A DNA stretch of 64,000 bases from Alphaproteobacteria bacterium (lineage in GTDB: Bacteria > Pseudomonadota > Alphaproteobacteria > Puniceispirillales > Puniceispirillaceae). The stretch spans positions 1-64,000 of the forward strand of contig JAKMFL010000021.1 in the NCBI GenBank assembly GCA_022425485.1, read 5' to 3'. The position numbers were made by a program, and so were the translations under genes. Shown piece after piece: positions 41,683-57,611 of this stretch (position 1 is the first letter of the stretch; each line of letters begins with the position of its first letter). The notes under the pieces were generated by a model. That model had not been told where the DNA came from. It worked only from the letters and a program-made list of their open reading frames with translations, and ran no database searches.

Positions 41683-43079
41683 TGGCAAGGCTTGTGCAGT
41701 TCATTTTAGTATGCGGCGGTGCTGCGCTGTTAATAAGTTGGCTTGCCAAACAACCGGGCATGACCCTAATTGCTTGGTCAGGCTGGCAGATAGAATTACG
41801 AACTAGCCTTGTTATTGCGGCATCAGTTTTATTCATTGCCTTGCTATTCCTGGCATACAGAACAGTGCGTGCGTTGATTTTATGGCCGGGGTGGCTAGGC
41901 CATAACTGGCAGATGCGCCGTCACAAAAAAGGCGAGCGTGCCCTTTCGCTTGGTATGGTGGCCTTCGCTGCTGGGGATCACAAAGTTGCGCGTCGCCAAG
42001 CCCGCAAAGCAGAAAAACTCCTAGGCACAGGCTTGCTGCCAGACCTGTTATCTGCGCAAGCTGCCCATGCCGCAGGTGATGCTAAGGCTGCCTTGCGCTA
42101 TTTCACAGCCCTATCGCGCCATGAAGATACCGCCTATTTTGGGCATTTAGGTTTGATGCGCCTCTATCAAGAGCAAGGCAAAGAGGCGCAAAGTCTGGCG
42201 GCAGCGCATAAGGCATTGGCAAGCTCGGACGCCCAGTCACCCGCTGCCATTCGGATTTTCGCGGATGATTTAAGGGCGATGCGCTGGCGTGATGCGCTGG
42301 ATAAATTATCTGGTTTTCTTCGCCAAGATGAAGGCGTGCTTGCTGCTGCTGGAATGCAAGAAGGGCTATCAGCAGGCCAGCTTGTAAAGCCTTCTTTGTT
42401 GGCCGCGCATTTATGTGTTCTTTTATCTGAAGAGGATATAGGGGATAAAAAAGGGTATTTAGAGCGTGCCCTTGATTTTAGTCCCCGCATGATAGAGGCC
42501 AGTCGCCGCCTAGCACTTCTAGCCTCAGATGGGCAGAAAAAATCAGCGCTTAAGCGGCTGGAAAAAGATTTCAAAACTTTTCCGCATGGTCAGCTAGCGG
42601 ATCTGATTGCAAAGCTGTCTGGGGATAATGATGGCCAACTCATAGCTCGTCTGGGGAAATTGGCAGCAGCGTCGACGCATTCTGATGAAGCGCGTCTTAT
42701 CGTGGCAGAACGGGCGTTACGAAGCGGGATATGGGCATCAGCCTCGTCAATGCTGGAAGAGGTAAGCTTAGCTGGGCAAACCAATAAATATTTCCTGCTC
42801 GCATCGGAGCTAGCGGTTAAAAAGCAGTCTATCGATCCAGAAAATAAGGACGCTTCTAGCCTAAAGGGCAAAGATACGAATAATAATCTGGAAAAAGAAG
42901 CCGCATTATTGGCTGCCGCTCATGCTCCCCATGCTGCGCGTTGGCATTGCTTGGCATGCGATGATGCATTGGTGCAGTGGGAGATGGTCTGTCCGTCTTG
43001 CGGTGTTTTAGGGCAGATGGATTGGGTTCAATCACAAAGCCTGTCGCGGTTGGCGCTGGAAAACAAAGAAAGCGTGTAG
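41682..43079 (+). CDS. HemY-like TPR membrane protein with C-terminal zinc ribbon
   Basis: A 465-residue protein. Two N-terminal membrane helices (ILVCGGAALLISWLA and SLVIAASVLFIALLFLAY) are followed by the RRHKKGERALSLGMVAFAAGDHKVARRQARKA segment, typical of HemY_N, and tetratricopeptide-like helices. The end has a four-cysteine ribbon, CLACDDALVQWEMVCPSCG, a feature of alphaproteobacterial HemY. This is the proteobacterial HemY, not the Bacillus oxidase of the same name. It may scaffold haem-pathway enzymes at the membrane (inference). Confidence 0.85.
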   Translation: MARLVQFILVCGGAALLISWLAKQPGMTLIAWSGWQIELRTSLVIAASVLFIALLFLAYRTVRALILWPGWLGHNWQMRRHKKGERALSLGMVAFAAGDHKVARRQARKAEKLLGTGLLPDLLSAQAAHAAGDAKAALRYFTALSRHEDTAYFGHLGLMRLYQEQGKEAQSLAAAHKALASSDAQSPAAIRIFADDLRAMRWRDALDKLSGFLRQDEGVLAAAGMQEGLSAGQLVKPSLLAAHLCVLLSEEDIGDKKGYLERALDFSPRMIEASRRLALLASDGQKKSALKRLEKDFKTFPHGQLADLIAKLSGDNDGQLIARLGKLAAASTHSDEARLIVAERALRSGIWASASSMLEEVSLAGQTNKYFLLASELAVKKQSIDPENKDASSLKGKDTNNNLEKEAALLAAAHAPHAARWHCLACDDALVQWEMVCPSCGVLGQMDWVQSQSLSRLALENKESV

Positions 43080-43205
43080 CCTGCAAAGATTATTGAAAAT
43101 TCCTTAAAAATAAGCTAGCTGTTAAGGAGAAGGCGGTATGCTTTATGGATCAACCAGCCTATCGATCGTTTGAACCCATCTGTAAAAAACAGTTAGGGCG
43201 GTATG

Positions 43206-43214
43206 TGGTATAAG
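43206..43214 (+). promoter_or_regulatory. Possible extended -10 promoter for the liv-type operon
   Basis: TGGTATAAG combines a TGn element with a near-consensus -10. No good -35 is seen. A start near 43221 leaves about 20 bases of leader with a GGGAGGA ribosome-binding site. Confidence 0.4.
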
Positions 43215-43242
43215 CTGTGATCGTTTTTTTGGGAGGAACCCG

Positions 43243-44457
43243 ATGAATAAAAATGTTTTAATACTTGTAGGTGTCGCGGCGCTTGCTGGACTGGCTTATA
43301 TTTTTGTGGCCGGAGATAAAGGCGGTATGCAAACTGCTGAAGGCCCTAAAATTGGTATTATCTTAGGCTATACAGGGCCTATTGAATCGCTCACACCTGA
43401 TATGGCTATGGGGGCGGAGCTTGCTATTGCAGAAGCCAATAATTCTGGTAATTTTGCCCTTGGCGAGGTGACCTCTGTTCGTGCTGATTCAACCTGTATC
43501 GATTCAGCCGCAGCCACTGCAGCAGCAGAACGTCTGGTTACATCAGACAAGGTTAATGCCATCATGGGCGCAGATTGTTCTGGTGTTACAACGGCTATTC
43601 TAGAAAATGTGGCAGTGCCAAATGGGGTGATGATGGTTTCTCCTTCTGCAACCTCGCCTGCGCTATCAACAGTAGCAGATAATGACCTATTTTTCAGAAC
43701 CGCGCCATCAGATGCGCGTCAAGGCGAAGTAGTGGCCGAAATCCTCAAGGATAAGGGCTATAAGACAGCCGCTATGACCTACACTAATAATGATTATGGC
43801 AAGGGTCTGGCTGATTCGATTAAGAGCAATTTTGAAGCTAATGGCGGCGTTATAACTATTTCTACTGCCCATGAAGATGGTAAGGGTGATTATGGCGCAG
43901 AAGTTGCGGCTTTGGCTCAGGCTGGCGGCGAAATTCTGATTGTTGCAGGGTATCTTGATCAGGGCGGTAAAGGTATCATTCAAGCATCGCTAGACGCAGA
44001 CGCCTTCAATATGTTCTATCTGCCAGACGGCATGATAGGCGATGCTCTGCCCGAAGCTATTGGCCCCGGCTTGAACGGATCCATTGGTGATGTACCAGGT
44101 ACAGATAGCCCAGGTGCTGCCAAATTTGCCGAAATGGCAACCGTAGGCGGCTTTAAAGCAGGGCCATTTGCCCCTGAAAGCTATGATGGCGCGGCGCTTA
44201 TCTTGCTGGCTATGCAGGCTGCAAAATCAACAGATAGCGAAGTGTTTAAATCCAAAGTAATGGATGTGGCAAACGCCCCCGGCGAAAAGATTTTCCCGGG
44301 CGATTTAGGCAAGGCACTGAAGCTTATTAGTGAAGGCAAAGACGTTGATTATGTTGGCGCCTCGGCTGTTGAGCTTGTTGGGGCTGGCGAGTCTGCTGGT
44401 AACTATGCCGAGATTGAAATCAAGGGTGGCAAGAATGTCACTGTTGGTTATCGCTAG
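43243..44457 (+). CDS. Branched-chain amino acid-type ABC transporter, substrate-binding protein
   Basis: The periplasmic receptor of a LivKHMGF-like importer. 404 residues with an N-terminal signal or signal-anchor (VLILVGVAALAGLAYIFVAG) but no clear lipobox. The type I binding fold starts KIGIILGYTGPIESLTPDMAMGAELA, with AVPNGVMMVSPSATSPAL and MTYTNNDYGKGLADS. GGGAGGA precedes the ATG at close range. A hairpin terminator after it probably lets only part of transcription continue into the ATPase genes. Ligand may be branched-chain amino acids, urea, amides or other small organics; it cannot be told from sequence. Confidence 0.9.
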   Translation: MNKNVLILVGVAALAGLAYIFVAGDKGGMQTAEGPKIGIILGYTGPIESLTPDMAMGAELAIAEANNSGNFALGEVTSVRADSTCIDSAAATAAAERLVTSDKVNAIMGADCSGVTTAILENVAVPNGVMMVSPSATSPALSTVADNDLFFRTAPSDARQGEVVAEILKDKGYKTAAMTYTNNDYGKGLADSIKSNFEANGGVITISTAHEDGKGDYGAEVAALAQAGGEILIVAGYLDQGGKGIIQASLDADAFNMFYLPDGMIGDALPEAIGPGLNGSIGDVPGTDSPGAAKFAEMATVGGFKAGPFAPESYDGAALILLAMQAAKSTDSEVFKSKVMDVANAPGEKIFPGDLGKALKLISEGKDVDYVGASAVELVGAGESAGNYAEIEIKGGKNVTVGYR

Positions 44458-44476
44458 GCGGATAAGATAATTATTA

Positions 44477-44517
44477 CAAAGCCCGGGTGTAGGATAAAAC
44501 CCCCGGGCTTTGTTTTA
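44477..44517 (+). terminator. Rho-independent terminator/attenuator within the liv-type operon
   Basis: CAAAGCCCGGG (44477-44487) pairs with CCCGGGCTTTG (44502-44512) over 11 bp and is followed by TTTTAT. It lies between the binding-protein gene and the ATPase gene, fitting higher expression of the receptor than of the membrane complex. Confidence 0.8.
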
Positions 44518-44533
44518 TGTATCGTCATTTTTT

Positions 44534-45313
44534 ATGATTAGCGTATCTCATTTAAATAAATCATTTGGCGGCATTCATGCTGTTAATGATGCTTCTTTGA
44601 AAATTGAAACTGGCTCTATCACTGGATTAATTGGTCCAAATGGCGCTGGTAAAACCACTTTGTTCAATATTATTGCTGGGCTTTATAAGCCAGATAGCGG
44701 CACGGTTACGCTGGATGGTAACGATATTACTGGCTTGCCGCCGCATGAACTTTTTCATCGCGGCTTGCTTCGGACGTTTCAGATAGCGCATGAGTTTTCC
44801 ACCCTCACCGTGCGCGATAATCTAAAAATGGTTGTTGCCGGTCAATCTGGCGAGCATTTATTACAGGCGTGGTTTCGTTCCAAAAAAGTACGTGCTGAAG
44901 AAGAGCTTATCTCTGATAAAGCAGAAGAGGTTATAAAATTTTTGCAGCTAGATGCGGTTGCAGATGAGTTGGCAGGACGCCTATCTGGTGGGCAGAAAAA
45001 GCTACTGGAACTTGGCCGCACCATGATGGTCGACGCTAAGATTGTCTTTCTGGATGAGGTGGGCGCAGGCGTAAACCGCACGCTGCTTGGGCATATCGGC
45101 GATGCCATACTCCGGCTGAATGAAGAAAAGAAGTACACTTTTTGCATGATCGAACATGATATGGAATTTATTAGCCGCTTATGTGATCCCGTTATTGTGA
45201 TGGCTGAGGGCGGTGTGCTGGCCACTGGAACAGCAGCAGAAGTTAGAGCCAATGAGGATGTGATCGAAGCCTATCTGGGTACTGGTTTAAAAAATCAGCC
45301 AAAGGGATCTTAA
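44534..45313 (+). CDS. livG: ABC transporter ATP-binding protein, LivG type
   Basis: One of two ATPases of the importer, about 259 residues from the ATG at 44534. The track start at 44510 lies inside the terminator hairpin and is unlikely. Walker A GPNGAGKTTLF, the signature LSGGQKKLLELG, Walker B VFLDEVGAG and the H-loop IEHDME are intact. Walker B reads DEVGAG, where most LivG proteins have DEPxAG. It lies 3 bp before livF. Confidence 0.92.
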   Translation: MISVSHLNKSFGGIHAVNDASLKIETGSITGLIGPNGAGKTTLFNIIAGLYKPDSGTVTLDGNDITGLPPHELFHRGLLRTFQIAHEFSTLTVRDNLKMVVAGQSGEHLLQAWFRSKKVRAEEELISDKAEEVIKFLQLDAVADELAGRLSGGQKKLLELGRTMMVDAKIVFLDEVGAGVNRTLLGHIGDAILRLNEEKKYTFCMIEHDMEFISRLCDPVIVMAEGGVLATGTAAEVRANEDVIEAYLGTGLKNQPKGS

Positions 45314-45316
45314 GAG

Positions 45317-46021
45317 ATGGCCTATTTATCAGGCGAGAATATGACGGGTGGCTATGGTGATGCGGATATCTTGCATCATTGCAGCATTGGCGTTGAAAAG
45401 GGCGAAATAGCCGTTGTGGTGGGGCCAAACGGTGCCGGCAAATCTACCGCCATGAAAGCCGTCTTTGGGATGTTGCATTTACGTGAAGGCGCTGTGATGC
45501 TGGATGGGGAAGATATCACTTCTCTTATGCCACAAGAACGAGTCTTTAAGGGGATGGGATTTGTGCCGCAGACGCAAAATGTATTTCCCGGCTTAAGTGT
45601 TTTGGAAAATCTGGAGATGGGCGCTTTTATCCGTGATGACGATATCTCTGGGACATTGGAACAGGTTTTTCAGCTTTTTCCAGTTCTAGCGGAAAAGGCA
45701 GAACAGCCTGCTGGCGAATTATCAGGCGGTCAGCGCCAACAAGTTGCGGTAGCGCGGGCGCTGATGACCCGCCCAAAAGTCCTTATGCTGGATGAGCCTA
45801 CCGCAGGTGTCTCGCCTATTGTGATGGATGAGCTGTTTGACCGCATCATTGAGGTAGCACGAACAGGTATTGCCATTTTGATGGTTGAGCAGAATGCTAA
45901 ACAAGCCCTATCTATTGCGGATAAAGGCTTTGTCTTGGTCCAAGGGCGGAACCGCTATACCGATACTGGTGCTGCTTTGCTAGCTGACAAAGATGTGCGC
46001 AAAGCGTTTTTAGGGGGATAG
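45317..46021 (+). CDS. livF: ABC transporter ATP-binding protein, LivF type
   Basis: The second ATPase, 234 residues. Walker A GPNGAGKSTAMKAVFGML, a Q-loop region VPQTQNVFPGLSVLENLEMGAF typical of LivF, the signature LSGGQRQQVAVARALM, Walker B VLMLDEPTAGVSP and the H-loop position VEQNAKQAL (Gln in place of His as in LivF) are present. It is packed between livG (3 bp) and livH (7 bp). Confidence 0.94.
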   Translation: MAYLSGENMTGGYGDADILHHCSIGVEKGEIAVVVGPNGAGKSTAMKAVFGMLHLREGAVMLDGEDITSLMPQERVFKGMGFVPQTQNVFPGLSVLENLEMGAFIRDDDISGTLEQVFQLFPVLAEKAEQPAGELSGGQRQQVAVARALMTRPKVLMLDEPTAGVSPIVMDELFDRIIEVARTGIAILMVEQNAKQALSIADKGFVLVQGRNRYTDTGAALLADKDVRKAFLGG

Positions 46022-46028
46022 AGCCGAT

Positions 46029-47042
46029 ATGACAGATATCCTAAATGCGTTTGTATTGCTCGCAAATTTTGTTTTGATACCCGGTCTTGCCTATGGCAGC
46101 CAGCTTGCTCTTGGTGCGCTTGGTGTTACCATGGTCTATTCTGTATTGCGTTTTTCTAATTTTGCGCATGGCGAGCTTATGTCTTTTGGGGCGATGTTCT
46201 GTGTGTTGATAACTTGGGGTTTGCAATCAGCTGGTATAAGTATCACGCCGCTTCCCACCGCGCTTTTAGCGTTGCCTGCGGCGATACTCCTAACTATCGC
46301 GCTTGCACTTATGACCGACAAGCTGGTCTTTTCCTATTATCGGCGTCAGCGTTCAGAGACAGTTACCTATCTGATTGTTTCCGTTGGTGTGATGTTTTTT
46401 ATAGGCGGGCTAATCCGCTTTATTATCGGGCCAGATGACCGTGTGTTTGCGGATGGGCAGCGGTTTTTACTAAAGGCGCGCACCTTTAAAGACGCAACAG
46501 GTCTTAGCGAAGGTTTAGCCATTAAAACATCGCAAGGCGTAACCATTATACTGGCCTTTGTGGTGGTGGCAGCCCTATTTTGGTTTTTAAACCGCACCAA
46601 AACGGGTAAATCTATGCGTGCCTATTCTGATAATGAAGATTTGGCGCTGCTCTCTGGCATTAACCCTGAACGGGTAGTAATGATTACGTGGATTATTACT
46701 GGCGCGTTAGCAGCATTGGCAGGCACTTTATACGGCCTTGATAAAAGCTATAAGCCGTTCACCTATCTATCGTTATTATTGCCGATTTTTGCTTCTGCCA
46801 TTGTTGGCGGTGTTGGCAGCCCCATAGGCGCTATCGCTGGGGGGTATGTGATCGCATTTTCTGAATTGCTGGTTACCTTTGCCTATAAAAAAGTTATTAG
46901 CTATCTAACCTTTGAGCAGGTCGTCCCAGAAGGGCTGGTTCAGCTATTATCAACTGATTATAAAATTGCCGTATCTTTCGTGATTTTATTGATCGTCTTA
47001 TTGATTAGACCGACAGGGTTGTTTTCGGGAAAAACAATTTAG
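46029..47042 (+). CDS. livH: ABC transporter permease, LivH type
   Basis: An inner-membrane channel subunit of 337 residues with about eight helices. The early segment GSQLALGALGVTMVYSVLRFSNFAHGELMSFGA and the late ASAIVGGVGSPIGAIAGGYVIAFSE are family hallmarks, including the EAA-like cytoplasmic loop. It is longer than E. coli LivH by some 30 residues because of a loop around the FIIGPDDRVFADGQ segment. It is followed by livM after 24 bp. Confidence 0.93.
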   Translation: MTDILNAFVLLANFVLIPGLAYGSQLALGALGVTMVYSVLRFSNFAHGELMSFGAMFCVLITWGLQSAGISITPLPTALLALPAAILLTIALALMTDKLVFSYYRRQRSETVTYLIVSVGVMFFIGGLIRFIIGPDDRVFADGQRFLLKARTFKDATGLSEGLAIKTSQGVTIILAFVVVAALFWFLNRTKTGKSMRAYSDNEDLALLSGINPERVVMITWIITGALAALAGTLYGLDKSYKPFTYLSLLLPIFASAIVGGVGSPIGAIAGGYVIAFSELLVTFAYKKVISYLTFEQVVPEGLVQLLSTDYKIAVSFVILLIVLLIRPTGLFSGKTI

Positions 47043-47066
47043 CGGCGAGTAAGTGGAAATACAGGA

Positions 47067-48404
47067 ATGAATACGCCATCTGATGACACAAAAAAAAGAC
47101 AGGAACGCAATCTGACGCTTTTTGGTGTGTTGGTTGTATTATTTGTGTTTGTAGGCATGGCACAAAGCTGGAATGTTTCTCTGGCTATTCTGAATTTATG
47201 TCTGATTTCTGCGATTATGACACTTGGTGTAAATATCCAATGGGGATATGCGGGCATTGTTAATTTCGGTGTGATGGGGTTTGCCGCGCTTGGTGGTCTG
47301 GCAGGTGTGCTGGTATCCATGCCTCCGGTTGCGGCTAGCTGGCAGGCAGGAGGGCCAGAACTATTACTAGGCGGGGCGATTATTATGATCACCATCGTGC
47401 TGGCGGTATTTGCGGCTAGCAAAACCCAACATTTGGGGCGCTGGCGGTTCTGGATAATTGTTGGAGTTAGCCTGACAGGCTATTTCCTATTGCGGCTGCT
47501 GGTAGACCCAGCCATTGAAGCAATCGAATCAATTAATCCGGCAAAGGCTGGGCATATTGGCGGGCTAGGTTTGCCTATTTTGTTATCGTGGGTGGTTGGC
47601 GGCATTTTTGCGGCGGGGGCAGCCTATGTTATTGGCAAGGCATCGCTTGGTTTGCGCTCTGACTACCTCGCTATCGCAACATTAGGTATTTCTGAAATTG
47701 TCGTTTATGTGCTGAAAAATGAAGATTGGCTGGCACGCGGCGTCAAGAACGTAAATGGTTTGCCGCGTCCTGTACCCTATGAGGTAGATTTGCAAGCTAC
47801 CGCTTGGGTTTCCGAGCTTGCCGCAAGGTTAGGTGCAGATGTTAACGAGCTGTCTTCGATAATCGTCAAGCTATGTTATGCTGGGCTATTTATTCTCGTT
47901 CTGGCGATTTTATTCTGGTTGTTTGAAACAGCTTTGCGCTCGCCATGGGGACGGATGATGCGCGCTATTCGCGATAATGAGGTTGCCGCCAATGCTATGG
48001 GCAAGCATGTGACCGCCAAACACTTACAAGTTTTTGTGTTGGGATCAGCTGTAATTGGGGTTGCTGGGGCGATGCTGACAACCCTAGATGGCCAGTTTAC
48101 ACCGCATTCCTATTTGCCCCTTCGCTTTACTTTTTTGATTTGGATTATGGTGATTGTTGGCGGCTCTGGGAATAATTTTGGCTCGGTATTAGGCGGCTTT
48201 ATTATCTGGTTCTTTTGGGTTGAATCTGAGCCCCTTGGCCTCTGGTTAATGGACGTCATTACCATGCCGTTAGACGCCAATAATCCTTTGAAGATGCATC
48301 TTTTGGCGTCAGCAGCGCATATGCGCCTGATGACAATGGGATTATTGATGTTGTTGATGTTGCGTTTCGCACCGCAAGGGTTAATCCCCGAAATAAAGAG
48401 ATAA
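47067..48404 (+). CDS. livM: ABC transporter permease, LivM type
   Basis: The second permease subunit, 445 residues. Hydrophobic helices alternate with the conserved GVNIQWGYAGIVNFGVMGFAALGG and SLGLRSDYLAIATLGISEIV, and the cytoplasmic SPWGRMMRAIRDNEVAANAMGKHV. The C-terminal end GLLMLLMLRFAPQGLIPE is typical. An insert of about 60 residues near residues 90-160 makes it longer than usual. Last gene of the five-gene operon; a dehydrogenase follows after 39 bp. Confidence 0.93.
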   Translation: MNTPSDDTKKRQERNLTLFGVLVVLFVFVGMAQSWNVSLAILNLCLISAIMTLGVNIQWGYAGIVNFGVMGFAALGGLAGVLVSMPPVAASWQAGGPELLLGGAIIMITIVLAVFAASKTQHLGRWRFWIIVGVSLTGYFLLRLLVDPAIEAIESINPAKAGHIGGLGLPILLSWVVGGIFAAGAAYVIGKASLGLRSDYLAIATLGISEIVVYVLKNEDWLARGVKNVNGLPRPVPYEVDLQATAWVSELAARLGADVNELSSIIVKLCYAGLFILVLAILFWLFETALRSPWGRMMRAIRDNEVAANAMGKHVTAKHLQVFVLGSAVIGVAGAMLTTLDGQFTPHSYLPLRFTFLIWIMVIVGGSGNNFGSVLGGFIIWFFWVESEPLGLWLMDVITMPLDANNPLKMHLLASAAHMRLMTMGLLMLLMLRFAPQGLIPEIKR

Positions 48405-48443
48405 CGCTTTAATCGGTAAATTCATAAAATTAGGAGACAAGCG

Positions 48444-49412
48444 ATGACCAGGGCAAAAGAAGATAAAGCGGTTGGTTTCATTGGGCTTGGGAATGTTGGC
48501 GCTAAGCTCGCTGGATCGTTGCTACGCAATGGTGCTGACCTTACCATTCGGGATCTGGATGAGGCCGCAGCGGCCCCCTTGCTAGCGGCAGGGGCTAAAT
48601 GGGGTAAAAGCCCTGCTGAAATGGCATCAGCTTGCGATATAATTATTACGTGTTTGCCTTCGCCTGTGATAAGTGCGGCTGTGCTTGAAGCAGAAGATGG
48701 CCTGCTTGCTGGTTTTAGAAAAGGGTGTATCTGGGCAGAGATGAGCACCACAGATGAGACCGAGATTCACCGATTATCTGCGAAGGTGGCTGCGGTTGGC
48801 GGGCGTGCTGTTGACTGTCCAGTGTCAGGGGGGTGTCACCGCGCAGCAACAGGAAATATTTCTATCTTCGCGGGATGTGAGCGCGAGGTGTTTGATGACA
48901 TGCTGCCGTTCTTGACCAAAATGGGACGACGGATTTTACATACTGGCCCTCTTGGTTCTGCAACAGTGCTTAAAGTCGTAACTAATTATTTGGCAACGGC
49001 TAATCTTCTATCTGTTGCCGAAGCGCTATCTACCTGTAAGGCAGCAGGCATGGATATGCGCACCAGCTATGAAGCCATAGCAATATCTAGCGGGACCAGC
49101 TTTGTACATGAAACCGAAGGGCAGGTTATTTTAAATGGTAGCCGTGATATTAATTTTACGATGGATCTGGTGCTAAAGGATATTAGCCTGTTTCAGGATG
49201 TTGCCATCCGGTCTGGCTTGCAATTGGAGCTTGCCCCCTTTCTGGTAGAAATCTTTAAAGATGGTATTGAAAAATACGGACCGCGTGAATTCTCTCCCAA
49301 CATTATTCGCCGTCTAGAAGAGGCCCACGGTCTGGATGTAAGTGCAGCAGGCTTTCCAAATGAAATCACTGACGATGAGCCTGAAGAATCAGGCTATGAG
49401 GTTATTATATAA
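48444..49412 (+). CDS. NAD(P)-dependent beta-hydroxyacid dehydrogenase (3-hydroxyisobutyrate dehydrogenase family)
   Basis: A 322-residue oxidoreductase. The cofactor motif is GFIGLGNVGAKLAGSLLRNGADL, the substrate loop is DCPVSGGCHRAATGNISIF (family DAPVSGG) and the catalytic lysine lies in LKVVTNYLATANLL. A longer C-terminus than usual ends in acidic residues (DDEPEESGYEV). The short 39-bp gap to livM suggests read-through from the transporter, so it may act on a compound that the transporter brings in (inference). The exact hydroxyacid is unknown. Confidence 0.82.
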   Translation: MTRAKEDKAVGFIGLGNVGAKLAGSLLRNGADLTIRDLDEAAAAPLLAAGAKWGKSPAEMASACDIIITCLPSPVISAAVLEAEDGLLAGFRKGCIWAEMSTTDETEIHRLSAKVAAVGGRAVDCPVSGGCHRAATGNISIFAGCEREVFDDMLPFLTKMGRRILHTGPLGSATVLKVVTNYLATANLLSVAEALSTCKAAGMDMRTSYEAIAISSGTSFVHETEGQVILNGSRDINFTMDLVLKDISLFQDVAIRSGLQLELAPFLVEIFKDGIEKYGPREFSPNIIRRLEEAHGLDVSAAGFPNEITDDEPEESGYEVII

Positions 49413-49413
49413 A

Positions 49414-49434
49414 AAAACCGCTGACGGTTTTATA
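49414..49434. terminator. Rho-independent terminator after the dehydrogenase
   Basis: AAAACCG and CGGTTTT pair around a CTGA tetraloop, with an A-tract before and T residues after. It starts right after the stop codon and can serve the convergent rhodanese gene as well. Confidence 0.75.
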
Positions 49435-49483
49435 CCCGTTTTAACCCCTATGCCGCTGCTGATTTATCTTTGGTGCTCCAGTT

Positions 49484-49888
49484 TTATCTTTGATTCCAGG
49501 GCAACTGGTGATATTTCCACCCATTTGTAAGACTGCGATGATTCTGGCTATCCAAATCCCCTTCAAAACCTTCGCGCACATTGCAGACCTTTTCAAACCC
49601 GTTCTGAACAAGGCTCATACACGCCGCTGCAGAACGTGCGCCAGACCGGCAAATCACAAAAATTTCTGTATCTGCGCTTGCCTGCTCTTGGCACTGATTA
49701 ACAAAATTTAAATTTTGCTGGCCTGTAATATCGCTCCACTCGATAAGAGCAAGCTGTCCCTTGGTTTCGCGAATATCAGGGATACCCACATAGACCCATT
49801 CAGCGCGGGTGCGGCAGTCTATCAGAAGGCTATTTTTGTTTTCTGTGAGCGCGTGATAGACCTCTTTTGGGCTCAATTCGGTAAACAT
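49484..49888 (-). CDS. Rhodanese-domain sulfurtransferase
   Basis: A single rhodanese domain of 134 residues. It begins MFTELSPKEVYHAL and has LLIDCRTRAEWVYVGIPDI; the active-site loop is ICRSGARSAAAC with the catalytic cysteine. Such proteins move sulfane sulfur or may act in cyanide or redox handling. It is divergent from acuI and close to DMSP genes, but no sulfur-specific link can be shown. Confidence 0.9.
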   Translation of the reverse strand: MFTELSPKEVYHALTENKNSLLIDCRTRAEWVYVGIPDIRETKGQLALIEWSDITGQQNLNFVNQCQEQASADTEIFVICRSGARSAAACMSLVQNGFEKVCNVREGFEGDLDSQNHRSLTNGWKYHQLPWNQR

Positions 49889-49987
49889 ATTTGTTCCTGA
49901 CTTTCTTTATGGGTGCGTTTTTTGTAGGGTATAGTCTGGCTAGAGTGCCAGATTTTTTAGCAAACGAAAAGTTTGGGGAGATACTTT

Positions 49988-50989
49988 ATGTTTGATGCGC
50001 TGGTGTTAGAACAGGATGATGCAGGAAAAACACGTGTCGAAATCCGTCAGGTTGATAATGATTTTCTGGGTGAGGATGGCGAGGTTTTGGTCGCGGTAGA
50101 ATATGCCGGCGTGAATTATAAAGACGGTCTGTGCATTAATGGTTTAGGGCGTTTAATCCGTGAATTTCCACGCATTCCCGGTGTTGAATTTTCAGGAGAA
50201 GTTCTGGAAAGTCGTGATGCCCGCTACAAGCAGGGTGATAAGGTTATTGCTACTGGGTGGCGCATTGGTGAGGTAAGCCATGGCGGCTATGCGCAGCGCG
50301 CACGTATTAAGGCTGATCAGCTTGTGCCACTGCCAGCTTCGATGACTACCCGTCAGGCAATGATATTTGGCACACCCGGCCTTACTGCGATGTTTGGATT
50401 GCAAGCGCTAGAGGCGCATGGCTTGACCCCACCAAAAGGAGATGAAGTTCCAGAGGTTTTAGTTACTGGCGCGGCTGGCGGGGTAGGTTCTATCTCTGTT
50501 GCATTGCTATCAGCGCTAGGCTACCGCGTGGCCGCGGTCACTGGCCGGATAGATGCCTCTGGTGACTTTTTACGAAAAATGGGCGCGCATACTCTAATCG
50601 CTCGTGATGAACTTTCTGAGACTTCATCCAGACCATTGGAGAGTGAGCTTTGGCTTTCTTGTATAGATAATGTGGGCGGACAGATGCTTGCGCGTATTTT
50701 AGGCCAGCTTCGGTATGGGGGCTCGGTGGCCGCTATTGGCAATGCAGGTGGCAATGATTTGCCAGCAAATGTGCTGCCCTTTCTGCTGCGCGGTGTGAAT
50801 TTGCTTGGTATTGATTCTGTATTTCAGCCCTATGCAAATAGAGTGACAGCTTGGCAGCGACTTGCGTCGCAATTTCCAATGGAAAAACTGGAGGAAATTG
50901 TTACTGAAATCAACCTAGGGTCGCTTGAGGAAACAAGCAAAGCGATATTGAAAGGAGAGATACAGGGGCGTTGTCTCGTCTGTCTGTAG
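49988..50989 (+). CDS. acuI: Acrylyl-CoA reductase (AcuI/YhdH family)
   Basis: A zinc-free medium-chain reductase of about 333 residues. It matches E. coli YhdH along its length (remembered family pattern): GVNYKDGLCINGLGRLIREFPRIPGVEFSGEV, TGWRIGEVSHGGYAQRARI, the cofactor site VTGAAGGVGSISVALLSALGYRVAAVTG, and IGNAGGNDLPANVLPFLLRGVNLLGIDSV. In DMSP-using bacteria this enzyme reduces acryloyl-CoA to propionyl-CoA with NADPH. The ATG at 49988 follows GGGGAG and is preferred to the upstream start. dddP lies 0.9 kb away on the same strand, supporting the acrylate role. Confidence 0.87.
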   Translation: MFDALVLEQDDAGKTRVEIRQVDNDFLGEDGEVLVAVEYAGVNYKDGLCINGLGRLIREFPRIPGVEFSGEVLESRDARYKQGDKVIATGWRIGEVSHGGYAQRARIKADQLVPLPASMTTRQAMIFGTPGLTAMFGLQALEAHGLTPPKGDEVPEVLVTGAAGGVGSISVALLSALGYRVAAVTGRIDASGDFLRKMGAHTLIARDELSETSSRPLESELWLSCIDNVGGQMLARILGQLRYGGSVAAIGNAGGNDLPANVLPFLLRGVNLLGIDSVFQPYANRVTAWQRLASQFPMEKLEEIVTEINLGSLEETSKAILKGEIQGRCLVCL

Positions 50990-51091
50990 GGTCCGATAGT
51001 CTGATAGGCATGTTTTTAGCGATCATGTGGTAAGGCGGGTCTGGCTCTCGAGTTAAAAAGCGAAAGAAGGGCTAAGCGATAGAAGGCCTAA

Positions 51092-51650
51092 AGACAGCTA
51101 AAAGCAGTTCAGACAAAAGGACAGGCTGAAGTGCGTATTGGCGGGCGCCCTTTTTTGGTAGGGGGCAGGGATGGTGCAGGATCTAAAGGCCCGCATCACA
51201 GCAGAATATATTGCCGATCTTCGCTGCGATTTTCTGGTACTACATAGCCCTATTGATAGCATTGTAGGCATTGAAAATGCAGCTGAAATATTTGCCCATG
51301 CGAAACATCCAAAATCCTTTGTCTCTTTAGATAAGACCAACCATCTGCTAGCCAATGCAGGAGACGCCAATTTTGCCGCAGAGGTTATTTCTAGCTGGGC
51401 GCAAAGTTGCCTGCCGAGGGCGGAAAAACTTAACCCCTCCAAAGAAGGAGACGCGCTGGTAAGTGCAAGCCCTGATAGTGATTTTGCTTATTATATCCTA
51501 GCAGGAAGCTATCTGATGCGTGCAGATGAGCCAGATACGGTTCCGGGCGGTTTGGATGGCAGGCCTCCCCCTTACGACTTTCTGCTAGCTGGGCTTGTTG
51601 CCTGTACCGCAATGACGTTGCGGTTATATGCCTGGTGCATAAATCGCTAG
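51092..51650 (+). pseudogene. Broken alpha/beta-hydrolase-OsmC fusion gene
   Basis: The long frame (51171-51650) encodes the tail of an alpha/beta hydrolase (FLVLHSPIDSIVGIENAAEIF, with a final LDKTNHLL His) joined to the start of an OsmC domain (PPPYDFLLAGLVACTAMTLRLYA). Before it, in another frame, GQAEVRIGGRPFLV fits the residues just upstream in such fusions, so a frameshift lies near the T6/G5 runs at about 51150-51170. Around 200 N-terminal residues and most of the OsmC domain are missing. Intact members are single proteins of about 400 residues. It is therefore a decaying gene between acuI and dddP, not an active enzyme. Confidence 0.8.
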
Positions 51651-51861
51651 AAGCGGGCATTCAGGTCACTACCAGCTTGTCTTAAGCCTCGTTTTTACCT
51701 CTAAAATTGCTTCTTTTTCGACATTTATCTGTAAAACTGTCGCCTCTTGAACTTGTGTTTCGCTAAAAGTTTGTCACCCTAAAAATGGAATGACGCTGAA
51801 GCTGGATGGCGACATTTTTTGAGAAAAAAGCGAGCAGCTTTTTAAGGCAGGAGATTTAATC

Positions 51862-53190
51862 ATGAATTCTTTTGTTATGGGTTCTAACCGAAAAATTGAT
51901 CCCTCACGGCGGGCGCACTTACGGCCCGATGGCACCACTCTTGATAATGACCGGTGTGAAATTGGCCCCACTGGGCTGGCTTTTTCAGAATGGCAGGAGG
52001 CTGGTATCACGCCGCCTGACTTGCCAGCTTTGCGTGAATACCGGTTATCGCGGTTACAAGAACAGATAAAAGCCCATGATTGTGCAGGCTTGCTGCTGTT
52101 TGATCCGCTGAATATCCGCTATGCAACAGATAGCTCGAATATGCAACTTTGGACGGCTCATAATGCGGCACGTGCCTGTTTTGTGCCGCCTTCTGGCAAG
52201 ATGGTATTGTTTGATTTCCATTCCTGTGCACATCTATCTGCGCATTTGCCTCTGGTTGGTGAAGTGCGGGGCGGTGCTTCCTTCTTCTATTTTGAAACGG
52301 GTGATCGCACAGAGGAGCATGCAAATCTCTTTGCTGATCAAATTATGTCTCTTATGGCGATACATGGCGGCAAGAATAAGCGGCTAGCGGTGGATAAGAT
52401 TGAAAATGCGGGCTTTGCAGCCCTGACCCGCAAAGGCGTGCAACTGCTAGATGGCCAGGTGCTAAGCGAACATGCGCGTTCCATAAAGAATGAAAATGAA
52501 GTAAATGCGATGCGCTGCGCTATTCATGCTTGTGAGCGTGCGGTCGATGAAATGCGCAGGGCGGTGGTGCCAGGTGTTACCGAAAATGATGTTTGGGCGG
52601 TTTTGCATGCTGGCAGTATCAAACGCGGCGGTGAATGGATTGAAACGCGGATATTATCCTCTGGGCCGCGCACCAACCCATGGTTTCAGGAATGTGGTCC
52701 CCGAATTATGGAAGCTGGTGATATGCTGGCTTTTGATACGGATTTGGTCTCAACTTATGGCTATTGCTGTGATATTTCGCGCTCATGGGTTGTCGGGGAT
52801 GTCATGCCAACGAATGATCAAAAAACCTTATATAAAATCGCTTATGAGCATGTCATGCATAATATTGCGATGCTAAAGCCCGGGATGGGCTTTTTTGAGG
52901 CGACCCAAAAGGCCCACCGCTTGCCGGAAGCTTACCGCGCACTGCGTTATGGGGTTTTGGCGCATGGGGTAGGGTTATGTGATGAGTATCCTTCCATTCG
53001 CTATCCAGAAGATGTCACGCATTACGGCTATGGCGGCCAGCTAGAGGTTGGCATGATTTTGAGTGTTGAGGCCTATATTGGCGCAGAAGGCGGCAGAGAA
53101 GGCGTTAAGCTAGAAGAACAGGTGGTTATCACTGAAAAGGGCGCAGAAGCTTTATCGTGCTATCCGTATGAAGCAGATTTACTGAGTTAG
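51862..53190 (+). CDS. dddP: DMSP lyase DddP (M24 metallopeptidase-like fold)
   Basis: Cleaves dimethylsulfoniopropionate to dimethyl sulfide and acrylate. 442 residues, the usual DddP length. The N-terminal RKIDPSRRAHL, DNDRCEIGPTGLAF and FDPLNIRYATDSSNMQLWTAHNAAR are DddP-specific, and GGEWIETRILSSGPRTNPWFQECGP matches the active-site region. Metal ligands expected for the family are all present: Asp292, Asp294, Asp304, His368, Glu403 and Glu418 (my count). AGGAG precedes the ATG. It lacks peptidase-type partners, and acuI lies upstream, which supports a DMSP-to-propionyl-CoA route. Confidence 0.9.
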   Translation: MNSFVMGSNRKIDPSRRAHLRPDGTTLDNDRCEIGPTGLAFSEWQEAGITPPDLPALREYRLSRLQEQIKAHDCAGLLLFDPLNIRYATDSSNMQLWTAHNAARACFVPPSGKMVLFDFHSCAHLSAHLPLVGEVRGGASFFYFETGDRTEEHANLFADQIMSLMAIHGGKNKRLAVDKIENAGFAALTRKGVQLLDGQVLSEHARSIKNENEVNAMRCAIHACERAVDEMRRAVVPGVTENDVWAVLHAGSIKRGGEWIETRILSSGPRTNPWFQECGPRIMEAGDMLAFDTDLVSTYGYCCDISRSWVVGDVMPTNDQKTLYKIAYEHVMHNIAMLKPGMGFFEATQKAHRLPEAYRALRYGVLAHGVGLCDEYPSIRYPEDVTHYGYGGQLEVGMILSVEAYIGAEGGREGVKLEEQVVITEKGAEALSCYPYEADLLS

Positions 53191-53201
53191 GAGGTTTGCT
53201 A

Positions 53202-53747
53202 TTACGCGCCTTTTTGCACAAAGCCTATATGCGGCAGATTGCGCCCTTGCTGGGCATAATCAATGCCATAGCCAATAACAAACTCATCTGGAATATCAAA
53301 GCCTGTCCAGCGGATATCCACCTCTATCTCACGCCGCGAGGGCTTATTGAGGAGCGTGCAGACAGACAGGCTAGACGGGCCTCTGGTCTGCATAATCTTC
53401 AGCACCTGCGCCAGAGTATAGCCAGTATCAATGATATCCTCGACGACCAGCACATCACGATTATGGATATTGGTTTCTAAATCTTTTAAGATTTTCACTT
53501 GCCGAGAGGATATAGTGGCGTCGCCATAGCTGGATACCGTCATAAAATCCACCTCAACAGGCAGGTTTAACCGGCGCACCAGATCAGCAATAAAAATAAA
53601 GGATCCGCGCAGAAGGCCCACCACAACAAGCTGTTCTGTATTTGGATAACTTTCCGTTATCTGTTTAGCAAGCTGGTTAACGCGGGCGGTGATTTCCGTC
53701 TCGGAAATTAGGATCTCAACATGATCATCACCGGTAAGAACAGACAT
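53202..53747 (-). CDS. hpt: Hypoxanthine phosphoribosyltransferase
   Basis: Salvages hypoxanthine (and guanine) to IMP/GMP. 181 residues. The early VVVGLLRGSFIFIADLVRRL, the flexible-loop SSYGDATISSRQVKILKDL and the PRPP loop VLVVEDIIDTGYTLAQV are conserved; IPDEFVIGYGIDYAQQGRNLPHIG is the usual C-terminal segment. It converges with dddP, only 11 bp between stops. The 278 bp upstream hold a repeat but no other gene. Confidence 0.95.
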   Translation of the reverse strand: MSVLTGDDHVEILISETEITARVNQLAKQITESYPNTEQLVVVGLLRGSFIFIADLVRRLNLPVEVDFMTVSSYGDATISSRQVKILKDLETNIHNRDVLVVEDIIDTGYTLAQVLKIMQTRGPSSLSVCTLLNKPSRREIEVDIRWTGFDIPDEFVIGYGIDYAQQGRNLPHIGFVQKGA

Positions 53748-53874
53748 GTTTTAACCTCTTGTTCTAGACAACGCCTCTTACGCACTTATCACGCCAATTA
53801 ACAGGCTCGTAATTTTGATAAACTCCGCGCAAGCTAGCATAGCATGACCACGCGCTAGGGACAGAAAAAAATTA

Positions 53875-53922
53875 CCTTAAATCACTTTTGCCTTAAATCA
53901 ATTTTACCTTACATCACTTTTA
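53875..53922. repeat. 16-bp tandem repeat, 3 copies
   Basis: CCTTAAATCACTTTTG, CCTTAAATCAATTTTA and CCTTACATCACTTTTA lie between the divergent hpt and dehydrogenase genes. The rest of this gap shows no clear promoter or gene. Confidence 0.8.
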
Positions 53923-54025
53923 TAAGATGTGCTTGTAAAGCACTGGACTTGCCTGCCCTACCCGCCCTATTCTGTGGTCGGGAATTTTAGATAGTTTAAT
54001 ATGATAGAGCAGATGGAGAGCGAAT

Positions 54026-54898
54026 ATGGCAAAAGCAGCATTTTTAGGCCTTGGGGTTATGGGCTATCCGATGGCGGGGCATCTAGCTTCCGGTGGCCAT
54101 GAGGTTGTTGTTTATAACCGCACTGATGCAAAAGCAGAAAAATGGGTTTCCCAGCATGGCGGCGCCCTTGCGGCTACGCCAGCTGAGGCTGCATCTGGCG
54201 CTGAATTTGTGTTTGCTTGTGTGGGTGATGATGCGGATATTCGTAGCATTACCACAGGCGAGAATGGGGCGTTTGCCACTATGGCCAGCGATGCCGTTTT
54301 TATTGATAACACAACCGCTTCTGCCGATGTTGCAAGAGAGCTATATAGCGCGGCACGTACGCATGGCATGCATTTTATTGATGCCCCTGTTTCCGGCGGT
54401 CAGGCTGGGGCCGAAAATGGTAAGCTGACGGTGATGTGCGGCGGTGATGCCGCTGCATTTGCGCGTGCTGAGCCTTTAATGGCCTGTTATGGGGCAAAGG
54501 TAACACATATGGGGGATGCTGGGGCTGGCCAGCTCACCAAGATGGTAAACCAGATTTGTATTGCTGGATTGGTGCAAGGCTTATCAGAAGCGTTAAATTT
54601 CGGCCAAAATGCGGGGCTGGATATGGATAAGGTGCTGGGGGTTGTTTCCGGAGGCGCTGCGCAATCTTGGCAGATGGAAAATCGGGGCGCAACCATGGTG
54701 CGCGATGAATTTGATTTTGGCTTTGCGGTAGATTGGATGCGCAAAGATTTACGGATATGCATGGCCGAGGCTGCCCAAAATGGCACCGAGCTTCCCGTGA
54801 CCGCATTGGTAGCTCAATTCTATGCTGCGCTCTCGCATCAGGGGTTTGGGCGCAATGATACTTCTAGCCTTATCCGGCTATTAAAGCGTTCAAAATAA
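54026..54898 (+). CDS. NAD(P)-dependent beta-hydroxyacid dehydrogenase (GarR/MmsB-like)
   Basis: A 290-residue oxidoreductase of the 3-hydroxyisobutyrate / tartronate-semialdehyde reductase family. The cofactor site is AFLGLGVMGYPMAGHLASGGHEVVVYNRT, the substrate loop FIDAPVSGGQAGAENGKLTVMCGG and the catalytic lysine in GQLTKMVNQI. It could oxidise 3-hydroxyisobutyrate or reduce tartronate semialdehyde or succinic semialdehyde. The neighbouring semialdehyde dehydrogenase (convergent) makes a hydroxyacid-semialdehyde-acid sequence possible, but the direction and substrate are not fixed by sequence. Confidence 0.85.
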   Translation: MAKAAFLGLGVMGYPMAGHLASGGHEVVVYNRTDAKAEKWVSQHGGALAATPAEAASGAEFVFACVGDDADIRSITTGENGAFATMASDAVFIDNTTASADVARELYSAARTHGMHFIDAPVSGGQAGAENGKLTVMCGGDAAAFARAEPLMACYGAKVTHMGDAGAGQLTKMVNQICIAGLVQGLSEALNFGQNAGLDMDKVLGVVSGGAAQSWQMENRGATMVRDEFDFGFAVDWMRKDLRICMAEAAQNGTELPVTALVAQFYAALSHQGFGRNDTSSLIRLLKRSK

Positions 54899-54927
54899 GC
54901 AGGTAATGCAAAGGCCGACCGCTATTG

Positions 54928-54955
54928 AAAGAGGGGCAAATCGCCCCTCTTTTAT
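54928..54955. terminator. Rho-independent terminator between convergent dehydrogenase genes
   Basis: AAAGAGGGGC pairs with GCCCCTCTTT (10 bp, 5-base loop) followed by TATT. It can act in both directions, since the stem starts with A residues. Confidence 0.85.
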
Positions 54956-54989
54956 TAAGCTTTATTTTGTTGCAAACAATTAGATGCGG

Positions 54990-56447
54990 TTACACACCGC
55001 CAACGACCAACAGTTTGATTTCCAAAAATTCATCAATGCCATATTTTGAGCCCTCGCGTCCAAGCCCAGAGGCTTTTACCCCGCCAAATGGGCCTACTTC
55101 CGATGAATACGCGCCTGTATTGGCAACAGCCATCCCATATTCCAGCGCCTCACCAACGCGGAAAATTCGTCCCACATCCTTGGTAAAATAATAGGCGGCA
55201 AGCCCAAAGATAGTATCATTGGCAGCTTCTATCACTTCTTCTTCGGTTTCGAATTTAAATAAAGCAGCAACCGGGCCAAAGGTCTCTTCTGAGAAGAGTT
55301 GCATATCTTTTGTTGCGCCGGTTAGCACGGTGGGCTGATAAAATGTACCGCCTTTTTCATGTGGGGCGGCGCCTACTGAAACGGCGGCCCCTTTTGCGAG
55401 CGCATCTGCGACATGACGCTCAATTTTATCAAAGCCTTGCTGGTCGATGATAGGGCCTTGCGATACCCCATCTTCAAAGCCATCGCCAACTTTCATTGCC
55501 GCCACTTTTTCAGTTAAAGCGCGGGCGAATTCATCATAAATACCCGCCTGCACAAAAATGCGATTGGCACAAACACATGTCTGTCCAGCATTCCGATATT
55601 TTGAGGCGATTGCGCCTTCTACTGCCTCTTCTAAATCGGCATCATCAAACACAATAAGCGGCGCATTGCCGCCTAACTCTAGGCTAACTTTTTTCACCGT
55701 CTCAGCGGATTGCCGCATTAAGATTCGGCCGACTTCTGTTGATCCGGTAAAGGTGATTTTGCGCACGCGCTCATCCGCGCATAGCGTGTTGCCCATGGCC
55801 GGTGCATCCATGCCGGTAACGATGTTCATCACGCCAGCAGGGAAGCCTGCGCGGTGCGCTAGTTCTGCTAAAGCAAGCGCAGAAAGCGGTGTTTGTTCAG
55901 CTGGTTTCAGCACGCATGTACACCCTGCTGCCAGTCCCGGTGAGACTTTTCGGGTTATCATTGCATTTGGGAAATTCCACGGCGTTATCGCGCCAAAAAC
56001 GCCGACTGGCTGCTTTAGGACAAGGAATTTTTTATCTGGAAAGGGGCTTTCTAGCACATCACCTGATACGCGTTTAGCTTCTTCGGCAAACCATTCAATA
56101 AAGCTGGAGCCATAAAGGATTTCGCCTTTGGCTTCGGCTAGAGGCTTGCCCATTTCAGCTGTCAGGATAGTTGCCAGATCATCTGCATGTTCAATACATA
56201 AATCATACCAGCGCCGCAAAATTCCGGCACGGTCTTTGGCGGTGCGGGCCGCCCATGCATGGCGTGCTGCCTCTGCAGCTTCAATGGCAGCGGCAATGCC
56301 GTCAGCGCCAAAATCAGCCACTTCTGCAATGACATCGCCATTGGCAGGATTGGTCACGCTAAAGCGTTTATCGCTCTGTGCAGAGGTGAATTTGCCATTT
56401 ATAAAGGCGTCCGTCTTTAACAAGCTCGGGTCGTTTAGAGATATCAT
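54990..56447 (-). CDS. gabD: Succinate-semialdehyde dehydrogenase-type aldehyde dehydrogenase (GabD-like)
   Basis: Oxidises succinic semialdehyde (or a close semialdehyde such as malonate or glutarate semialdehyde) with NAD(P)+. 485 residues. TPWNFPNAMITRKVSPGLAAGCT, the base glutamate in ELGGNAPLIVF and the catalytic cysteine in NAGQTCVCANRIF are intact. It ends with VGPFGGVKASGLGREGSKYGIDEFLE, the GabD-type tail. It is 83 bp downstream of sodB, with a terminator between. Confidence 0.9.
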   Translation of the reverse strand: MISLNDPSLLKTDAFINGKFTSAQSDKRFSVTNPANGDVIAEVADFGADGIAAAIEAAEAARHAWAARTAKDRAGILRRWYDLCIEHADDLATILTAEMGKPLAEAKGEILYGSSFIEWFAEEAKRVSGDVLESPFPDKKFLVLKQPVGVFGAITPWNFPNAMITRKVSPGLAAGCTCVLKPAEQTPLSALALAELAHRAGFPAGVMNIVTGMDAPAMGNTLCADERVRKITFTGSTEVGRILMRQSAETVKKVSLELGGNAPLIVFDDADLEEAVEGAIASKYRNAGQTCVCANRIFVQAGIYDEFARALTEKVAAMKVGDGFEDGVSQGPIIDQQGFDKIERHVADALAKGAAVSVGAAPHEKGGTFYQPTVLTGATKDMQLFSEETFGPVAALFKFETEEEVIEAANDTIFGLAAYYFTKDVGRIFRVGEALEYGMAVANTGAYSSEVGPFGGVKASGLGREGSKYGIDEFLEIKLLVVGGV

Positions 56448-56467
56448 AGCAGCTATCGGTTCCTTAT

Positions 56468-56503
56468 AATGAAAAATGAAGCGAATTTAGATATCGCTTC
56501 ATC
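56468..56503 (-). terminator. Rho-independent terminator for sodB
   Basis: On the minus strand ATGAAGCGA pairs with TCGCTTCAT (9 bp, 9-base loop), then TTTTTCATTA follows. It separates sodB from gabD. Confidence 0.6.
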
Positions 56504-56530
56504 TCTTTTGGTTCAGCTGATGGTGCGCTG

Positions 56531-57136
56531 TTAGCCTGCCATTCTGGAGGCAACATTTTCCCAATTCACCAAATTATCTAGGAAATTTTGGATATATACG
56601 GGGCGCTTATTTCTGAAATCAATGTAGTAGGAATGCTCCCACACATCACAGCCCAACAGAGCAGTCTGACCAAAGCAAAGCGGGTTAACGCCATTTTCAG
56701 TCTTGGTTATGCTAAGCTCACCTGCGTTGTTCTGCACTAGCCAACACCAGCCAGCGCCAAACTGGCCAACACCGGCGGCAACAAACTGGGCTTTAAACTC
56801 GTCAACAGACCCGAAAGAAGCGGTTATAGCATTTTCCAACTCGCCGGGCATGGTGCGGCCATTAGGGCCCATCATTTCCCAGAATTGGATATGATTCCAA
56901 TGCTGAGAGGCATTATTAAAAACACCATTTTGGGCAACAGCACCCGCATCATAAGAGCCAGTGATGATATCTTCGAGCGACTTTGTTTCCCACTCTGTGC
57001 CTGCAATTAGCTTATTGCCGTTATCGACATAGGCTTTGTGATGCAGGTCGTGATGAAATTCTAGGGTTTCGCTGCACATGCCATTCTGGGCTAGCGCATC
57101 GTATGCATAAGGCAAATCTGGGAGTTCGAATGACAT
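56531..57136 (-). CDS. sodB: Superoxide dismutase, iron type
   Basis: Detoxifies superoxide in the cytoplasm. 201 residues. The metal ligands are in LEFHHDLHHKAYVDNGN (two of the four), NHIQFWEMMGPNG region and CDVWEHSYYIDFRNKRP (Asp and His). AGWCWLVQN and the shape of the sequence fit FeSOD rather than MnSOD, although cambialistic use is possible. A palindromic AAGAAT-C-ATTCTT about 70 bp upstream may be a Fur/Irr-like site. Confidence 0.94.
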   Translation of the reverse strand: MSFELPDLPYAYDALAQNGMCSETLEFHHDLHHKAYVDNGNKLIAGTEWETKSLEDIITGSYDAGAVAQNGVFNNASQHWNHIQFWEMMGPNGRTMPGELENAITASFGSVDEFKAQFVAAGVGQFGAGWCWLVQNNAGELSITKTENGVNPLCFGQTALLGCDVWEHSYYIDFRNKRPVYIQNFLDNLVNWENVASRMAG

Positions 57137-57207
57137 GGCGGTATCCTTTTAGGCTATGTTGATCGTTCTCTTATTCATATAGAAAGCGAAGCGTGATTTG
57201 AATAAAA

Positions 57208-57220
57208 AAGAATCATTCTT
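57208..57220 (-). promoter_or_regulatory. Possible iron-responsive operator upstream of sodB
   Basis: AAGAAT C ATTCTT is a perfect 6-1-6 palindrome in an A/T-rich stretch, about 70 bases upstream of the sodB start. It partly fits the Fur 7-1-7 pattern. Confidence 0.3.
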
Positions 57221-57374
57221 ATTGCATAATAGCAAACCTTCACAAGCAAAGGGGCTACGGTCCCATTCTTGCCGCTTTTATGCCGTTAAAGCTGCATAAT
57301 TTGAGTACAGAGTTACTTGAAATCATTAACGCGTTGCATAGTGATAAGGCTCGCAAAAAAAAGGATATGAAAAA

Positions 57375-57611
57375 ATGTTGCCTATTATTTTGATTGCTGG
57401 GCTTTTGGTTGGCGTAAGTACCCCCGCTTATCAGGAGTTTGCACGCCATTCAAACGGAAACCCAAGCTATAAGATATCTTATATTGATGATTGCCCCACC
57501 GGTATTCGTCCATCTGGCTATGCATTGGCACCGGGTAAATTTGTTTTATTCAAACAGCGCAGTCTTGACGGCACGGCAGGGGATGTCTGCGTTGCAGAAA
57601 AAGCAAACTAA
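57375..57611 (+). CDS. Small secreted or membrane-anchored protein of unknown function
   Basis: Not recognised. 78 residues: a hydrophobic N-terminal stretch (LPIILIAGLLVGVSTPA) that could be a signal peptide with cleavage after SxPA or an uncleaved anchor, then a short polar domain with two cysteines (DDCPTG and DVCVAE) that may form a disulfide. There is no strong ribosome-binding sequence other than AAAAAAAAGGATATG. It lies between sodB and argG, alone on the plus strand, and is followed by a 14-bp tandem repeat. Confidence 0.55.
   Translation: MLPIILIAGLLVGVSTPAYQEFARHSNGNPSYKISYIDDCPTGIRPSGYALAPGKFVLFKQRSLDGTAGDVCVAEKAN

Follow-up and report, generated by a model that had tools for sequence, protein, structure and literature searches.

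The window analysed here, the whole stretch of 64,000 nucleotides, carries an acuI gene and a dddP gene on the plus strand, with acuI upstream and 872 bp between the two. An earlier note on this DNA had placed an AcuI-type gene at 49988-50989 and a DddP gene at 51862-53190 on the same strand, about 0.9 kb apart, and a check of the open reading frames in the window confirms that both frames are open at these positions, intact and without internal stops. The gap between them holds the relic of a third gene, which that note did not mention. The features of the locus are as follows:

49484..49888, minus strand: gene for a rhodanese-domain protein (PF00581, 42 bits), divergent from acuI and found at the same position in many SAR116 loci
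49988..50989, plus strand: acuI, predicted acrylyl-CoA reductase of the AcuI/YhdH family, 333 aa (ATG at 49988, stop at 50987-50989)
51119..51685, plus strand: hydrolase-OsmC relic (pseudogene), the remains of a gene for an alpha/beta-hydrolase-OsmC fusion of ~405 aa, recognised by alignment to the related genome G001
51862..53190, plus strand: dddP, predicted DMSP lyase of the DddP family, 442 aa (ATG at 51862, stop at 53188-53190)
53202..53747, minus strand: hpt, hypoxanthine phosphoribosyltransferase (named from sequence reading), convergent with dddP and bounding the conserved SAR116 locus on its downstream side

Immediately before the locus, 43243-49412 holds ABC transporter genes of the branched-chain-amino-acid type and, after them, a 3-hydroxyisobutyrate-dehydrogenase-like gene; this set is kept in G001 and only partly in other genera. 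On the downstream side, a second 3-hydroxyisobutyrate-dehydrogenase-like gene (54026-54898) and a succinate-semialdehyde-dehydrogenase-like gene (54990-56447) are retained beside dddP-hpt throughout SAR116. No riboswitches or other RNA elements were found in 43000-57500, and a crude scan gave no match to a sigma-70-like promoter.

The best solved-structure matches to AcuI are PDB 5gxe and 5gxf (E 1e-119), the former of which we take to be Ruegeria pomeroyi AcuI. The protein is 57% identical to R. pomeroyi AcuI and 47% identical to E. coli YhdH, and it scores 397 bits against TIGR02823, the model for the acrylyl-CoA reductase family (AcuI/YhdH), above the cut-off of 297. For DddP the best solved structure is RlDddP (4rzy, E 6e-146), with residues 8-441 covered. 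Both proteins fall slightly under the NCBIfam equivalog cut-offs: AcuI scores 367 bits against NF051456 (cut-off 440), and DddP scores 581.5 bits (E 1e-174) against NF043017, just missing the cut-off of 600. The proteins of the SAR116 strain IMCC1322, Candidatus Puniceispirillum marinum, whose genome is presumably our G013 (locus L108), are under them too, at 392 bits for AcuI and 572 bits for DddP; another SAR116 DddP (L006) scores 588 bits, so SAR116 DddPs as a group seem to lie beneath the NF043017 cut-off. Comparison with the nearest relative, G001 (DddP 92% identical), gives dN 0.034 and dS 0.546 for acuI and dN 0.043 and dS 0.532 for dddP, or dN/dS of about 0.06-0.08. With dN this low relative to dS, the two genes are not chance open reading frames and are kept by purifying selection.

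Among genomes of the same family (f1) in which both genes were found, acuI and dddP lie within 1.6 kb of each other in 24 of 27, with gaps of 79-1590 bp; the corresponding figure for other families in the order is 0 of 12. In one unlinked case (G025) a contig break may explain the separation. The linkage is not due to chance, and the gene order acuI-dddP-hpt-hibd2-ssadh-sodB-argG recurs across SAR116 loci. The position of acuI upstream of dddP in IMCC1322 was reported by Todd 2012, when no other case of the two genes lying close together was known (PMC3338564). The locus is therefore already known in kind, and the window provides another member; what changes is that the linkage is typical of the family, and not the lone case recorded in 2012.

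Conservation of the two proteins differs across this family: against their counterparts at the same position in some other genera, AcuI shows just 46-51% identity and DddP 72-77%. In-place replacement of acuI was considered and rejected: the AcuI tree, the deep branches of which are weakly supported, groups the window's genus with the other f1 sequences, and there is one AcuI per genome, so fast divergence suffices. In a second family, f2 (L112, L115 and L060), the same slot order of hydrolase-OsmC, dddP, hpt and hibd2 is seen, and the DddP in that slot groups with Roseobacter DddPs, not with those of f1, reflecting either in-place replacement or old paralogues. In two relatives the dddP copy is interrupted by stops or by a break in the frame (G031:C55:42209-43522 and G028:C6:11267-12588), from either gene decay to a pseudogene or errors of sequencing.

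Base-by-base alignment with the intact G001 gene locates three lesions in the relic between acuI and dddP. The first, a 490-bp deletion at 51118/51119 bounded by a GGAC repeat, has taken the start and the N-terminal part. The second is a 1-bp insertion near 51159, and the third a 175-bp deletion at 51631/51632, through which most of the OsmC end is lost and the remainder is out of frame. The open reading frame listed at 51171-51650 is only a remnant of this relic and not a working gene. Two sister species have an intact gene at this place, G001 (L105) with an open reading frame of 405 aa and G002 (L006/L106) with a version at 80% identity, and the intact protein carries the Pfam domains Hydrolase_4 and OsmC. 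At the same place in G007 about 50 N-terminal codons are left, so decay there was separate from that in the window. The distance from acuI to dddP, measured between match ends and hence up to one stop codon above the true gap, is 1502-1590 bp in genomes that retain most of the gene, 875 bp in the window and 457 bp in G007; for the remaining genomes it is 79-203 bp. Since the distance shrinks stepwise with gene loss, tight acuI-dddP pairs could have arisen by deletion.

The company that the hydrolase-OsmC gene keeps elsewhere bears on what its loss might mean. In two SAR116 families (f1 and f2) it lies upstream of dddP on the same strand, at 84-245 bp; one Neomegalonema locus and nine from Rhodobacterales also have it on the strand of dddP, but downstream, at 108-2450 bp. 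In Roseovarius nubinhibens ISM an intact copy sits 0.75 kb beyond dddP on the downstream side. Clear homologues among 61 SAR116-order genomes are confined to those that bear dddP, mostly adjoining it. This distribution could indicate that the protein is a functional partner of DddP and AcuI, for example in acrylate or peroxide detoxification, and that its decay marks a changed handling of DMSP here; such a role would add to that of the gene pair, not compete with it. However, the family is widespread in bacteria without a DMSP link (669 plasmid records, mostly from Enterobacterales and Sinorhizobium), and most genomes with an acuI-dddP pair, that of IMCC1322 among them, have either decayed remains of the gene or none, which makes it dispensable for DMS production; its linkage to dddP may simply be an inherited neighbourhood. 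On balance we regard a partnership of this kind as unlikely. Equally doubtful is the broader proposition that the protein encoded next to dddP in several Rhodobacterales and both of these SAR116 families is an unrecognised accessory to DMSP cleavage, for instance against damage derived from acrylate or peroxides, which is going in the SAR116 lineages where acuI adjoins dddP and which the window captures in mid-loss. A literature search for an OsmC-dddP link found nothing relevant.

The dddP-like gene could also be read differently, as coding for an M24-fold peptidase or for a DddP-like enzyme whose natural substrate is not DMSP, in which case the adjacency of acuI would be coincidence. The six metal ligands on which the earlier note relied are all present, Asp292, Asp294, Asp304, His368, Glu403 and Glu418 aligning one to one with the RdDddP ligands Asp295, Asp297, Asp307, His371, Glu406 and Glu421 (PMC4108388). 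They are a weak discriminator, because the M24 fold and most of the metal ligands are common to DddP and M24 peptidases (PMC4108388), and the score just under the NF043017 cut-off also leans towards this alternative. The proposed catalytic residues of RdDddP, Tyr366 and Asp377 (PMC4108388), correspond in the alignment to Tyr363 and Asp374 of the window DddP; all eight residues are invariant across 91 DddP sequences, and the columns of Asp294, Tyr363 and Asp374, which are non-M24 residues, are not so occupied in 11 M24 proteins of the same order. The earlier note had asked whether the protein would place among plain M24 peptidases in a tree; instead, a single branch (support 100/99) splits the 11 M24 proteins from 39 DddPs, and on this branch and those three residues a plain M24 peptidase is rejected. 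Moreover, the IMCC1322 orthologue scores lower still on NF043017, yet that strain makes DMS without another known lyase and with no PF16867 cupin lyase found in its genome, and the acuI-dddP linkage is kept across genera. A peptidase, or an unrelated substrate with acuI alongside by accident, is thus highly improbable. Hardly better placed is the possibility that the enzyme mainly converts DMSOP to DMSO and acrylate, and not DMSP to DMS, which would leave the downstream role of AcuI unchanged. All tested DMSP lyases, DddP included, cleave DMSOP too, and Roseovarius nubinhibens DddP in E. coli shows a slight DMSOP preference, but DMSP is the favoured substrate of most DddPs and of the purified enzyme (PMC10686828), and IMCC1322 makes DMS when DMSP is added (PMC4304780). 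As DddP enzymes yield DMSO from DMSOP as well (PMC10686828), some DMSO output is possible.

We therefore hold with high confidence that the locus is a SAR116-family DMSP-cleavage pair, acuI-dddP, which would convert the algal compound DMSP to the gas dimethyl sulfide (DMS) and acrylate, and acryloyl-CoA to propionyl-CoA, in agreement with the reactions suggested by the earlier note. The first step is assigned to DddP and the last to AcuI because of homology, conserved active-site residues and DMS production by IMCC1322, so that the reactions and the DMS output of the host are predicted from characterised relatives. DddP would be a homodimeric two-metal lyase of the M24 fold that takes a proton from DMSP, with Asp374 probably the catalytic base, and would release DMS and acrylate. 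A CoA ligase whose gene lies elsewhere, and which in relatives is of the PrpE type, would turn acrylate into acryloyl-CoA, and AcuI would reduce the toxic acryloyl-CoA to propionyl-CoA with NADPH. This would follow the PrpE-AcuI route, in which a CoA ligase makes acryloyl-CoA and AcuI reduces it to propionyl-CoA (PMC5651017). The propionyl-CoA could join central metabolism through propionyl-CoA carboxylase. IMCC1322, which belongs to the same family and has the same acuI-dddP arrangement and a DddP 72% identical to that of the window, produces DMS from DMSP and increases its expression of dddP (Choi 2015; PMC4304780), and this makes the suggestion that the host is a likely marine DMS producer a strong one.

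The host is SAR116-like, and its assembly (G000) amounts to 1.99 Mb in 90 contigs at 99.9% estimated completeness. No acrylate-activating CoA ligase or transferase was recognised in the annotated part of the window (about 28-61 kb), as had been noted earlier. When prpE-type genes were sought elsewhere in the genome, as then recommended, family and protein searches of the assembly gave no PrpE-type ligase; an acetate-CoA ligase is present. The PrpE-type ligase is present in relatives (G001, G003, G005, G007, G013 and G020). In G001 it shares a 5.8-kb contig (C17; L165) with purE and purK, both named from reading of the open reading frames, and a search of this whole contig against G000 gave no matching stretch. 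Because purE and purK are missing too, a gap in the assembly is the more likely cause, and true loss of PrpE in the host was not accepted; the ligase possibly falls in such a gap, and the acetate-CoA ligase is a possible stand-in. Two PF01039 carboxylases of the PccB type are present (655 and 515 bits), an assignment that does not distinguish them from methylcrotonyl-CoA carboxylase.

Other genes for DMSP use lie outside the window. DmdA is coded on contig C5 (L162:737-1873; NF009133, 503 bits, cut-off 410), followed by an acyl-CoA ligase (L162:1942-3582) that could act as DmdB; both demethylation and cleavage of DMSP are probable in the host. GcvT in the window (34384-35526) was rejected as a DmdA, since it scores as GcvT. 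Contig C65 carries a candidate second DMSP lyase, a DddQ-like cupin (L163:7644-8276; PF16867, 105 bits) that matches DddQ structures. With DmdA and this candidate in the genome, some of the DMSP may bypass DddP, and DddP may not be the main source of DMS. An apparent second DddP at C65:70456 was dismissed as a 265-aa methionine-aminopeptidase-like open reading frame, judged by length and sequence reading.

Apart from the decayed third gene, the locus is ordinary for SAR116. The new elements are the breadth of acuI-dddP linkage within the family, the decayed gene that separates the pair, and a second lyase candidate in the host; the rest is known in kind. One more genome, from another SAR116 genus, is added to the DMS-producing locus known from IMCC1322; the staged loss of the intervening gene offers a possible origin of the tight pair; and the extra DddQ-like candidate together with DmdA suggests that DMSP fluxes in SAR116 are more complex than in IMCC1322.

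Comparison with known systems places the window closest to IMCC1322, where the genes (SAR116_1428/1427; PMC3338564, PMC4304780) have the same order and strand, with acuI upstream of dddP, and where hpt, hibd2, ssadh, sodB and argG are shared downstream. The two loci differ in that AcuI is only 54% identical, against 72% for DddP, and in that the gap between the genes is 102 bp in IMCC1322 but 872 bp in the window, where the hydrolase-OsmC relic persists; furthermore, neither a candidate DddQ-like cupin lyase nor PccB-type carboxylases were found in the IMCC1322 genome, whereas both are present in that of the window. Of the intact bifunctional alpha/beta hydrolase/OsmC protein of G001, the relic retains counterparts to residues ~165-330 and to the final ~15, and it lacks the start, the N-terminal part and most of the OsmC second half. 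The window AcuI belongs to the same acrylyl-CoA reductase family as those of R. pomeroyi and E. coli, but in R. pomeroyi acuI is located downstream of dmdA (PMC3338564), whereas in the window's genome dmdA is on a different contig from acuI. The DddPs of Roseobacter denitrificans, Ruegeria lacuscaerulensis and Roseovarius nubinhibens align with the window DddP over the full length and have in common with it the six ligands and the equivalents of Tyr366 and Asp377. The Roseobacter DddPs nevertheless form a different subclade, that of R. nubinhibens being about 53% identical to the window's, and in Roseobacters, unlike in the window, dddP is unlinked to acuI (PMC3338564).
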